Virus record (IMG/VR): IMGVR_UViG_3300021136_000059
Span: 1-23,209 of that record
Source: a virus
Length of the DNA stretch: 23,209 nucleotides
Reading direction: 5' to 3' (one strand)
A program made the position numbers and the translations under genes. Of the stretch, positions 259 through 18,718 are shown piece by piece. A model generated the notes under the pieces. The model was not told where the DNA came from. It was given only the letters and a program-made list of their open reading frames with translations, and ran no database searches. Every line of letters begins with the position of its first letter. The stretch's first letter is position 1.

Positions 259-475
259 TCCTGACTTCAAAGTAAAGTTCTGGGAATGGTTTGACAGGCT
301 GCCTAGGCCTGAGAGAAAGAAGTTTCAAGAGTACCCGTCGGATATGGCTGAGCTCTTCTTCTACAATAAGTACTACTCACGGGGGATTGATGCTAGTGGT
401 AACATGCCTGCCTTGCACGCAGGACTCGCCGGTCCGATTCCGGCATCCTCCACATTGAAAGACTCTGCTGTATAA
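245..475 (+). CDS. Small hypothetical protein whose frame runs through a tRNA gene
   Basis: A 76-codon frame starts at ATG 245 inside the end of the previous gene. Residues 1-46 look like a normal small phage protein, aromatic and charged (KFWEWFDRLPRPERKK). From about residue 46 the frame enters the tRNA-Ala gene (381-452) and reads it to the end. It stops at TAA 473-475, which is part of the TATAAATA late promoter of the next gene. The last 30 residues are therefore tRNA sequence read as protein and are unlikely to be an evolved domain. A likely explanation is that tRNA acquisition removed the original stop codon near 380. Function is unknown. I am fairly sure the N-terminal half is real and unsure that the tail has any role. 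Confidence 0.5.
   Translation: MDFDNPDFKVKFWEWFDRLPRPERKKFQEYPSDMAELFFYNKYYSRGIDASGNMPALHAGLAGPIPASSTLKDSAV
381..452 (+). tRNA. tRNA-Ala (anticodon TGC)
   Basis: The acceptor stem GGGGGAT (381-387) pairs with ATCCTCC (445-451) with one G-T pair. The anticodon arm is CCTGC-CTTGCAC-GCAGG (407-423), with anticodon TGC at 414-416. The T arm is GCCGG-TCCGATT-CCGGC (428-444). The D stem is short (ATG/CAT). Discriminator A is at 452, and CCA is not encoded, unlike the other tRNAs here. The T loop reads TCC rather than the usual TTC. The gene lies inside the reading frame 245-475. Confidence 0.85.
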
Positions 476-509
476 ATAGCTCGTAAACCCTATTGCAGCA
501 GAGTCTTTC
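457..509 (+). promoter_or_regulatory. Late promoter inside a hairpin masking the next gene's ribosome-binding region
   Basis: An exact T4-type late promoter TATAAATA lies at 471-478. It is bracketed by a perfect 14-bp inverted repeat, GAAAGACTCTGCTG (457-470) and CAGCAGAGTCTTTC (496-509), which ends 2 nt before the ATG at 512. The only purine-rich ribosome-binding candidate (AGAG, 500-503) lies in the right arm. Read-through RNA would fold and hide it. RNA started from the late promoter, at about 484, lacks the left arm and cannot fold. T4 is known to control I-TevI and some other genes this way; its use here is inferred. Confidence 0.75.
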
Positions 510-511
510 TT

Positions 512-1132
512 ATGAAATACCTCATATATAAAATCACCAATTTAGTCAATAGAAAGTACTATATTGGAAAACATCAGACTAAAGACTTAAATGATGGATA
601 TATGGGTTCTGGTAAACTCTTAAAAAGAGCTATCAAGAAGTATGGTATCGAGAACTTCAAAAAAGAAATACTTCATATCTTTGATAATGAAGAAGATATG
701 AATAATGCAGAAAAAGAACTAGTCGTCATTTCTGAAGAAACGTATAATCTGTGTGAAGGAGGTCGAGGAGGATTTAGCTATGTAAATCGTACCAGAAACC
801 ATCATGAACATAATCAAAAAATAGCTGACAAGCGTGACTATTCAAAAACAGATACTTCTTACGTCACAACAGAATGGATAGAAGAGAAAAGAGTTTCAGC
901 AAAACAACATTGGAAAAACGGTACGTATACTTTCATTCCAGATACAACCGGTATGAAACATACTGATGGTGTAAAAAAGAGAATGAGTGAAGCACATTCT
1001 GGAAGTAAAAATTCTCAATATGGAACGTGTTGGGTTACAGACGGTTCAAATTCCAAAAAGATAAAGAACGAAGAATTAAAAGAATATCTAGACAATGGGT
1101 TTGTTAAAGGCAGACGTATTAAGCGACCGTAG
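512..1132 (+). CDS. GIY-YIG homing endonuclease (Seg-like)
   Basis: This 206-aa protein has an N-terminal GIY-YIG nuclease domain: LIYKITN (4-10), the YYIG core (16-19) and the following GYMGSG stretch. A nick by this domain would start intergenic homing. The C-terminal part, with an SGSKNSQYG-type segment near 165-173, looks like the NUMOD-style DNA-binding tails of T4 Seg proteins. The gene is clearly AT-richer than its neighbours and uses AAA, GAA and ATA codons freely, which indicates transfer. It sits between two tRNAs, and its stop codon TAG (1130-1132) is formed by positions 8-10 of the downstream tRNA. Expression is probably late-specific through the 457-509 hairpin and promoter. Confidence 0.88.
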   Translation: MKYLIYKITNLVNRKYYIGKHQTKDLNDGYMGSGKLLKRAIKKYGIENFKKEILHIFDNEEDMNNAEKELVVISEETYNLCEGGRGGFSYVNRTRNHHEHNQKIADKRDYSKTDTSYVTTEWIEEKRVSAKQHWKNGTYTFIPDTTGMKHTDGVKKRMSEAHSGSKNSQYGTCWVTDGSNSKKIKNEELKEYLDNGFVKGRRIKRP

Positions 1133-1486: not shown

Positions 1487-1513
1487 TATAAATACTCCAG
1501 ACAATCTGGAGTA
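1487..1513 (+). promoter_or_regulatory. Late promoter overlapping a Shine-Dalgarno-masking hairpin
   Basis: TATAAATA lies at 1487-1494. A 9-bp perfect hairpin TACTCCAGA-CAA-TCTGGAGTA (1493-1513) follows and contains the Shine-Dalgarno GGAG (1508-1511) of the gene at 1519. A late transcript would begin near 1500-1501 and so lose the left arm, freeing the ribosome-binding site. A transcript entering from upstream keeps the hairpin. The logic matches 457-509, with a different stem sequence. Confidence 0.75.
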
Positions 1514-1518
1514 CTTCT

Positions 1519-2115
1519 ATGGAAGACTTAAAATGCCAATTTTGTGGACAAATGAAGAAAAGCTTAAAATCAATTAGAGCTCATCATGTCACATGTCCTA
1601 AAAATGATGACAGAAAATATAAGAACGGGATGATTGGTAAAACTCCATGGAACAAAGGTCTTTCTAAAGAAACAAATGAGATATTGAAAGGAGCATCAGA
1701 AAAATTATCTGGCGTTCCTCGAAAAGGAACTGTTTCTATCGAAGGAAGAATGAAACTTTCTTCTTTAGCTAAAGAAAGAGGTCTCGGTGGTTATAGACCC
1801 CATCCAAATAGAGGAACATATTATAAAGAAATATGGTTTGACTCTAGTTGGGAAGTAAGAGTAGCAAAATCTTTAGATGAGAATAAGATCAAGTGGGAAA
1901 GACCTAGAAATGGTTTCATCTGGAATGATGAAGGCAATAAGTACTATCCCGACTTCTATCTCATAGATCATGATGTATATCTAGATCCAAAGAATGCTTA
2001 CCTACAGAAAATAGATAAGCAAAAGATAGAAGCTGCTTCAATTAGAAATAACATTAAAGTTATAGTTCTTAATGAAGAACAGCTTGAATGGAGTACGATT
2101 GCTCTCATGGTATAG
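1519..2115 (+). CDS. Homing endonuclease, zinc finger + NUMOD3 + PD-(D/E)XK-like
   Basis: This 198-aa protein starts with a C-x2-C...H...C zinc-finger-like element (CQFCGQ at 6-11, then HHVTC at about 22-26). A NUMOD3-like segment (around GKTPWNKGLSKET, 40-52) and a third region with nuclease-like residues follow: FDSSWEVRVAKSL, YYPDFYL and YLDPKN, resembling the E...PD...(D/E)xK pattern of Vsr/resolvase-fold homing nucleases. Assignment to that fold is inferred from the pattern. The gene is AT-rich. Its last 15 nt lie within the 5' end of tRNA-Thr, and it lies between the two halves of an interrupted tRNA. Late expression is suggested by the promoter and hairpin at 1487-1513. Confidence 0.75.
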   Translation: MEDLKCQFCGQMKKSLKSIRAHHVTCPKNDDRKYKNGMIGKTPWNKGLSKETNEILKGASEKLSGVPRKGTVSIEGRMKLSSLAKERGLGGYRPHPNRGTYYKEIWFDSSWEVRVAKSLDENKIKWERPRNGFIWNDEGNKYYPDFYLIDHDVYLDPKNAYLQKIDKQKIEAASIRNNIKVIVLNEEQLEWSTIALMV

Positions 2116-4545: not shown

Positions 4546-4576
4546 AAGGGGTCCATATATAAAGTATGGACCCCTT
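4546..4576 (+). terminator. Rho-independent terminator after the tRNA cluster
   Basis: A perfect 12-bp hairpin AAGGGGTCCATA-TATAAAG-TATGGACCCCTT ends in a T-rich tract (TTTGCTTT). It lies 5 nt after tRNA-Ser and 19 nt before the next start, so it probably ends the tRNA/outer-membrane protein transcript. The loop resembles a late promoter in only 6 of 8 positions (TATAAAGT). Confidence 0.75.
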
Positions 4577-7042: not shown

Positions 7043-7067
7043 AAAGGAGGGGATGATCCCCTCCTTT
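7043..7067. terminator. Bidirectional terminator between convergent genes
   Basis: A perfect 11-bp stem AAAGGAGGGGA-TGA-TCCCCTCCTTT is flanked by an A-run on the left and TTTATCTTTAT on the right, so it has a T-tract in both directions. It begins 2 nt after the plus-strand operon stop and ends 12 nt before the minus-strand lytic transglycosylase stop. Confidence 0.9.
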
Positions 7068-16870: not shown

Positions 16871-17342
16871 CGATGATCTCTTCGGTGTGAAAGTCGTGTC
16901 TGACCGCTGATACGCCAGCTTCCTTGAACATCTGCTTGGTGAACTTGTAGGCGTCTTGCCAGATGGGTGCGATGTCCGCTGGGTGACAGATAAAGACGTT
17001 CTTGATGCCTACTTGGATGATCCCCTTAGCGCATTCAGAGCATACAGGAAGACCATGAACGTAAAGATCTGCGCCGTTGAGACTAGTTCCATTGAGTGTA
17101 GCATTGTAGATACAGTTCTGTTCAGCGTGGACTACAAACTTGTACTTGATCTCCCTGTCGTGAAGGCGTCGCTCACTGTCGTCGACTCCGCGAGGGAAGC
17201 CGTTGTATCCCTGTGCTAGGATCTGACCTTGACCACCGACGGCGACCGCGCCGATCTTGGTGCTCGGATCCTTAGACCAAGTCGAGATGTGTTGGGCTAG
17301 CTTGAGGTAGTTCTGCGTCCATCGCCATGACTTACTTGACAT
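16842..17342 (-). CDS. cd: dCMP deaminase
   Basis: This 166-aa zinc enzyme converts dCMP to dUMP. The zinc and proton-transfer residues are visible as HAEQN (72-76) and PVCSECAKGIIQ (99-110; C101 and C104). The early DPSTKIGAV and NGFPRGV motifs are those of phage and bacterial dCMP deaminases. T4 Cd is of similar size. It shares the substrate dCMP with the hydroxymethylase encoded upstream, so the two divide dCMP between thymidine and hydroxymethylcytosine synthesis. Its ATG overlaps the end of a homing endonuclease gene by 11 nt. Confidence 0.95.
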   Translation of the reverse strand: MSSKSWRWTQNYLKLAQHISTWSKDPSTKIGAVAVGGQGQILAQGYNGFPRGVDDSERRLHDREIKYKFVVHAEQNCIYNATLNGTSLNGADLYVHGLPVCSECAKGIIQVGIKNVFICHPADIAPIWQDAYKFTKQMFKEAGVSAVRHDFHTEEIIDVVSEPEGW

Positions 17343-17934
17343 CTTCTATCTCATTACAAAACATTTTGAAGCACTTGTTATGGTATTTCTTTATCATAGA
17401 TATACTATCTCTCTCATGGCATCCAATACAATAGTTTATCTGTTTATTAGTCGGTTCTTTTCCAAGGTGAGCTTTTCTAACTGCTTCTTTAACATATTCT
17501 GGTCTTTTAGTTCCAAAAATTGGATTATTAGAACCTAACATAGCTTGAGATTGCTTAGGACGTTTTTGTCCTATAAGTTTTTTATTTTGTTCTTTTCTAA
17601 ATGAAGATGCTTCTTCTTTTCTTTCTTCAGTCCATCTCTGCTTTAAGATCTTTTTTGTCTCTTCACTATGAGAGAATCCAATTTTCCATCCATGAGAACC
17701 ACCAACCGCATTGTTCCATCCTATTTTTTTATAAGGTCTCATTTCTTTTTCATATAAAAAACACTCTTCTCTAGTTCCTTCAAATAGTACTTTAACTGAT
17801 GATCCCTTAGGAACTCTGTTTTTTCTTAAATGTGTTTTATATCTCACGGATACGTTGTGACTAACTCCAACATATCCATCTTTTGTTGGATCTATACATG
17901 TTTCATCATATATCCAATAGACATAATTTTTCAT
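17332..17934 (-). CDS. GIY-YIG homing endonuclease with NUMOD3 repeats and a zinc finger
   Basis: This 200-aa protein has a divergent GIY-YIG domain: NYVYWIYDE (3-11), then GYVGVSHNVSVRYKTHL (20-36), with E at about 62 as the metal ligand. NUMOD3-like DNA-binding segments follow (GWKIGFSHSEETKKILKQ and FGTKRPEYVKEAVRKAHLGK). A C-terminal C-x2-C...H...C element (CIGCHERD...HNKC) completes a modular DNA-recognition tail. It is very AT-rich beside GC-balanced neighbours. It lies between dCMP hydroxymethylase and dCMP deaminase, and its last 11 nt contain the deaminase start. Late expression is suggested by the 17931-17986 leader. Confidence 0.85.
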   Translation of the reverse strand: MKNYVYWIYDETCIDPTKDGYVGVSHNVSVRYKTHLRKNRVPKGSSVKVLFEGTREECFLYEKEMRPYKKIGWNNAVGGSHGWKIGFSHSEETKKILKQRWTEERKEEASSFRKEQNKKLIGQKRPKQSQAMLGSNNPIFGTKRPEYVKEAVRKAHLGKEPTNKQINYCIGCHERDSISMIKKYHNKCFKMFCNEIEDVK

Positions 17935-17986
17935 TTTAGTTCCTCCTGATATATTCTTTATTTATATAAAGAAGGAACTAAAATGA
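17931..17986 (-). promoter_or_regulatory. Late promoter inside a hairpin that hides the homing endonuclease start codon
   Basis: Outer arms 17931-17944 and 17973-17986 are a perfect 14-bp inverted repeat. The arm nearest the gene contains the ATG (17934-17932) and part of the AGGAGG Shine-Dalgarno (17947-17942). TATAAATA on the minus strand (17966-17959) lies in the loop, so a late transcript starting near 17952 loses the distal arm and leaves the start free. The stem differs in sequence from those at 457-509 and 1493-1513, but the design is the same. Confidence 0.78.
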
Positions 17987-17998
17987 TTTGCCATTGCA

Positions 17999-18718
17999 TT
18001 ATTTGAAAATCTCTTCGTATTCTGCTTTAGTTAACATCTTACCGGTCTTAGAATATCCATCTATCATCCAGAAATCTTTCTGATAGCAATGCAGGCTACC
18101 AACTTGCCAGATGATGTCTCCAATGCCTACACCCAGGTCAGAGGCGAGCAGGTCCTGTACGTAGCGTTGCCAGGCCCAATCATTGCGATAACCCGCCCAG
18201 ACGTCGTTGGACCGCATCTGGACCACCACCTGAAGCTTACCGTCACGGATCATGTACTGCACTGCGTTGGTACAGATGAAGTCGGACATGCCGTCGGTGT
18301 TGTAGTCCTTGTGCATGGTAGGACGAGTGTAGATCATTACCGCGCGACGAGAGTTAGGGTTCTTCATCAGCTCAGTCAAGACACTCTCGTACTGTAGCTC
18401 GTTCTCATACGACCAGATGAGGTAGCCATAGTTCGAGTTGATCATGCCGTCGGGAGTAGCCACCTGCTTCCAGATAGCTGGTGGGCCGCCTGGAATGCTG
18501 TTGACGTTGAGCGACATCGAGCGATACCATTGAAGCTCGCGATCGATGTAGTCTTGGTTCGGCTCGCCGAAGATAGCTGGCTCATTTGCATTGAACTGAG
18601 CGCCGACCATCTCAAGCATCTTCACACCGGTCTTGTCGGTGACGAAGTCTTCACGAGCGAGCATGTCCTTGAACACACGACGAATCGTGTTGACTGTAAA
18701 TGCATAGTTCTGGGCCAT
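17999..18718 (-). CDS. 42: dCMP hydroxymethylase (T4 gp42 type)
   Basis: This 239-aa protein makes 5-hydroxymethyl-dCMP from dCMP and methylene-tetrahydrofolate. It follows T4 gp42 closely: DKTGVKMLEMVGAQFNANEP (28-47), INSNYGYLIWS, SRRAVMIYTRP, catalytic Cys in DFICTNAVQY (C149) and MRSNDVWAGYRNDWAW. The Asp in RND (D180) occupies the place of T4 D179, where thymidylate synthases have Asn, so the substrate should be dCMP rather than dUMP. It is coupled to the DUF1599-like gene by TAATG and followed by the homing endonuclease insertion. The phage genome therefore probably contains hydroxymethylcytosine. Confidence 0.95.
   Translation of the reverse strand: MAQNYAFTVNTIRRVFKDMLAREDFVTDKTGVKMLEMVGAQFNANEPAIFGEPNQDYIDRELQWYRSMSLNVNSIPGGPPAIWKQVATPDGMINSNYGYLIWSYENELQYESVLTELMKNPNSRRAVMIYTRPTMHKDYNTDGMSDFICTNAVQYMIRDGKLQVVVQMRSNDVWAGYRNDWAWQRYVQDLLASDLGVGIGDIIWQVGSLHCYQKDFWMIDGYSKTGKMLTKAEYEEIFK

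Follow-up and report, generated by a model that had tools for sequence, protein, structure and literature searches.

Each of the three homing genes in the window, a 23,209-base stretch of a T4-like phage that makes up an entire IMG/VR record, appears to carry a late-only switch, with a lid on read-through RNA and none on late RNA, a reading to which we give a probability of roughly 85%. Early and middle transcripts entering by way of the tRNA array or of the gene for thymidylate synthase would hold both arms of an inverted repeat, fold, and thereby mask the ribosome-binding site. Later in infection, RNA polymerase with gp55 would start about six bases past the late promoter TATAAATA, and the resulting message, without the 5' arm, would be translated. 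The switch is supported by the sequences, the predicted folds, the co-variation of the arms, the enrichment at homing genes and the presence of gp55 in relatives; the start sites, the early read-through and the difference in translation we infer. Weighing against it are the weak Shine-Dalgarno sequence (AGAG) of the gene at 512 and the early read-through into the genes, which is assumed. The window also encodes a sliding clamp and a clamp loader, the latter including a protein about 62% identical to its counterpart in Stenotrophomonas phage DLP6, and all three nuclease products are putative homing endonucleases, their activity being read from families and motifs.

Leaders of the three homing genes

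Gene 512 (512..1132, + strand) encodes a SegB-like GIY-YIG homing endonuclease of 206 residues (phrog_314, E 1e-40; about 39% identity to phage PP01 SegB). Its leader contains a perfect 14-bp inverted repeat (457-509), with the 5' (distal) arm at 457..470, the 3' arm at 496..509 and, between them, a 25-nt loop carrying the T4-type late promoter TATAAATA at 471..478 (+). The palindrome begins 3 nt past the called end of tRNA-Ala(TGC) (381..453, +; ARAGORN) and stops 2 nt short of the ATG at 512, and the end of the gene overlaps tRNA-Leu (1123-1199). Late transcription in T4 starts about six bases past the promoter, and by this rule the start is predicted near 484. Folding gives the long leader -28.7 kcal/mol (z = -7.9) and leaves the leader from 484 unstructured. 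The sequence-only reading had placed TATAAATA in the loop of a perfect 14-bp repeat over the ribosome-binding region of this gene, and both the coordinates and the predicted fold and accessibility, which put the 3' arm over the AGAG motif, agree with it.

Pattern search located two further TATAAATA sites, one at 1487 (+) and one at 17966 (-); another nuclease gene follows each of them at a distance of about 30 nt. The third homing gene (17332..17934, - strand) is GIY-YIG-like by a weak match below the Pfam cut-off. Its promoter (17959..17966, -; start predicted near 17953) lies in the loop of a perfect 14-bp repeat, with the distal arm at 17973..17986 (-), the 3' arm at 17931..17944 (-) over both AGGAGG and the ATG, and a fold z of -6.75. 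The second gene (1519..2115, + strand) matches PHROG endonuclease/resolvase families, and motif reading suggests a PD-(D/E)xK-like product. Here the hairpin TACTCCAG-acaat-CTGGAGTA (1493..1513, +; arms 1493-1500/1506-1513; z -3.8) covers GGAG, and the promoter (1487..1494, +; start predicted near 1500) sits on the 5' edge of the repeat and gives the start of its distal arm; together with the bases that follow (AATACTCC) it forms the 5' arm that pairs with the Shine-Dalgarno sequence (GGAGTA). The nesting of the promoter in a loop, as first proposed, thus stands at 512 and 17934 and fails at 1519, where the promoter is part of an arm. That a message from the predicted late start, near 484 in the case of gene 512, would lack the distal arm is supported at each of the three genes by its sequence, its predicted fold and comparison with relatives. 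No such leader was found at the relative of gene 1519 in Stenotrophomonas phage Bhz51.

When begun at the predicted late starts, all three leaders are weakly folded or unfolded. If the window's 32 gene starts are ranked by occlusion of Shine-Dalgarno and ATG, the homing genes take the first three places. The three exact TATAAATA sites compare with a mean of 0.28 in shuffled sequence, where 1 of 100 shuffles reaches three; the count of exactly three late promoters holds for the strict consensus, outside which falls AATAAATA at 2293-2300. That element lies upstream of the gene at 2323 (445 residues), has no palindrome and takes the form found in the T4 I-TevI leader.

Four perfect repeats in the window have arms of 11 bp or longer, against a mean of 0.15 (maximum 1) in first-order simulated windows; the four are the lids at 512 and 17934 and two terminator-like repeats (4546-4576 and 7043-7067). 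The first of the latter pair, a perfect 12-bp repeat past tRNA-Ser and before a glycosyltransferase-like gene, has TATAAAG in its loop and no late promoter consensus. The company of these two, and a T run after one homing leader in the nearest relative (G001, 132798), would fit palindromes that serve as terminators after the tRNA, with TATAAATA starting a late transcript beyond and the folding over the start codon incidental. We regard this as improbable: no T run lies downstream of the arms at 512, 1519 and 17934, the 3' arm runs up to the ATG or over it, and the start region loses more accessibility than at any other of the 32 genes.

Arm pairing and late promoters in relatives

Relatives of gene 512 were collected at 60 viral loci. 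About two thirds of the leaders in this family hold TATAAATA, CATAAATA or TCTAAATA in the loop, and about a third of the relatives are without the nested layout (e.g., L020, L035, L049 and L055-L059). In 28 distinct leaders, whose loops span some 15 to 33 nt, arm identity between sequences is 30%, yet each arm pairs with its own partner at 98% of positions, compared with 41% when partners are swapped. Co-variation was counted in two ways, by comparing arms directly and on an alignment built from a model, a first automatic alignment having misregistered several 3' arms. The co-variation score is 0.84 versus 0.27 in shuffles (reached in 0 of 500), and all 9 modelled pairs vary on both sides; the model-based alignment holds some opposite-strand matches of the same palindromes, so that these counts are not fully independent, a problem from which the arm-swap test is free. 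The signal is lost when the alignment is slid by one column. An inner stem pairing the promoter end (AATAG) with CTATT is kept in most leaders, and G-U outnumber A-C mismatches in the arms by 7 to 3, small counts that lean toward pairing in the transcribed strand. A search for useful relatives by solved-structure comparison found none.

Complementary arms would likewise be expected of a symmetric protein-binding site, and I-TevI represses its own promoter (PMC2988022); the repeat might accordingly be a two-fold DNA operator, bound by the endonuclease or some other dimer to silence the late promoter. The chance of this is slim in our judgement, because 30% arm identity among close homologues and loops ranging from about 15 to 33 nt are unlike a single protein site, and because an arm always covers the start region.

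The leader model (R1), run over 644 kb and further phage records, matches almost solely homing-gene leaders. In G002, a palindrome before a decayed gene has kept its arms while its promoter is mutated to TATAAATG, and a solo 15-bp palindrome with the mutated promoter TATAACTA stands between tRNA-Met and tRNA-Asp with no homing gene (L018, 1081-1138). The palindrome-and-promoter layout also occurs at about 1490-1560 of locus L123, before a 293-residue frame that has no PHROG match, in a locus where no tRNA is called; this frame is possibly another homing family.

TATAAATA itself is more widely used. It occurs 17 times in the 150-kb nearest relative (G001), 14 times in the 51-kb G007 and 16 times in the 178-kb G002, upstream of structural genes as well as homing genes. 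The earlier observation that it is found only before homing genes is accurate for this early/middle-gene window and does not extend to the 150-kb relative. A scan of the whole genome for the same layout before other homing genes had been suggested; in these relatives, 8 of the 14 homing sites and 1 of the 22 others have strong nested repeats (Fisher p = 0.0007, an optimistic value in that copies which are nearly identical, between G001 and G007 or inside G002, count separately). The homing list was drawn up by visual inspection of GIY-YIG and HNH sequences and partly checked. The promoter is therefore not homing-specific, and strong nested palindromes nearly are. The promoter-as-arm form seen at gene 1519 is also present at three GIY-YIG genes of G001. 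At homing genes, replacing the long leader by the short one raises the predicted start-region accessibility from 0.28 to 0.55; at other late genes it goes from 0.49 to 0.63. The gene for the late sigma factor gp55 is found in the 150-kb nearest relative (E 5.5e-58), the window being a fragment only.

Insertion sites and tRNA junctions

The distance between the called end of a tRNA and the start of the palindrome is 2-3 nt in at least 22 loci, and the tRNAs are of a dozen kinds; several homing genes, like gene 512, end at or inside the next tRNA. T6 SegB cuts at RAWTSGAAC (PMC13096335), a motif that we take to be the complementary strand of the tRNA T-loop GTTCSAWTY. The fixed junction between palindrome and tRNA would be explained if the target resembled that of SegB and lay within tRNA genes. 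A change in the T-loop that shields the upstream tRNA from its own nuclease was considered and rejected, the T-loop being ordinary in nearly all cases and TCCGA in the window an isolated exception. A search for an uninterrupted junction of tRNA-Ala and tRNA-Leu, free of gene 512, returned occupied copies only. A role of the hairpin in 3'-end processing of the tRNAs or in their stability within the array, with the homing gene merely behind it, would account for the 2-3 nt spacing in nearly all cases and for the copy between two tRNAs without a homing gene, but is very unlikely given that, among about 95 tRNAs in three relatives, only homing genes and that one solo copy have such hairpins accompanied by a late promoter or what is left of one, and that gene 17934 and L123 show the layout with no tRNA nearby.

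Gene 1519, together with a tRNA-Thr(GGT) at 2101-2174, which its stop overlaps, interrupts the anticodon loop of another tRNA-Thr(GGT) within 1453-2216. Relatives with the uninterrupted tRNA (L006, L071) read ...CATCATT|GGTAATGATGAGGTCGACAG..., and the window reads ...CATCATT|TATATAAATACTCC (gene, tRNA) CAAAAAAG|AGGTCGACAG... The inserted tRNA-Thr differs from the broken one and is not its copy; having the same anticodon, it could substitute for the tRNA that the insert breaks. Gene 17934 is flanked by the thymidylate synthase and dCMP deaminase genes, which overlap directly in the 150-kb relative, an empty site. What was the end of the synthase (GTCAAGTAA) is now the end of the homing gene, and the thymidylate synthase of the window has a different C-terminal tail (17332-18030).

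These arrangements lead us to a broader and tentative proposal, for which the odds seem to us unfavourable. Palindrome and loop promoter may form a portable cassette that travels with tRNA-targeting homing genes, its start fixed past almost any tRNA 3' end, with selection acting only on arm complementarity and promoter. Some inserts would repair the gene they interrupt (the tRNA-Thr at 2101, the synthase tail at 17934), leaving the parasite nearly harmless.

Comparison with known late switches

How phages tolerate SegB-like nucleases, which cut many sites including their own phage's tRNA genes, was described in 2026 as an important question still to be answered (PMC13096335). A late switch in which only the pairing is kept, spread over a large set of tRNA-array homing genes, may offer a direct and testable part of the answer.

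The switch is known in kind, and the three genes of the window are additional members. According to two reviews (PMC2988022, PMC3014915), the mechanism of lid and late promoter was worked out for T4 I-TevI, I-TevII, I-TevIII and segB and for Aeh1 mobE. At T4 I-TevI the late promoter overlaps a hairpin that masks the ribosome site in upstream-started transcripts, as established experimentally (PMC2988022, PMC3014915); I-TevI, however, lies inside a group I intron, where the lid also protects splicing, whereas the genes of the window are free-standing. T4 gene e (lysozyme) follows the same logic (PMC3014915) but is an ordinary lysis gene and not mobile. Aeromonas phage Aeh1 mobE is, like the genes of the window, a free-standing homing gene with its ribosome site under a hairpin, as cited in PMC2988022; by that description it differs in belonging to the HNH family and in lying within a ribonucleotide reductase gene. 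T4 segB (PMC2988022) is a GIY-YIG homing gene between tRNA genes, with its start under a hairpin and a predicted late promoter, all as at gene 512. Analysed by the same method, the T4 leaders of I-TevI (AATAAATACTTCT...AGAGGTATT) and segB (CATAAATACTC...GGAGATATT) take the promoter-as-arm form of gene 1519; at segB the promoter-like ACATAAATACTC is itself the 5' arm, whereas at gene 512 the promoter lies in the loop of a 14-bp palindrome. New here are the co-variation across many phages, the promoter-in-loop palindrome, its constant position next to the end of the tRNA and the decay of the promoter in dead copies.
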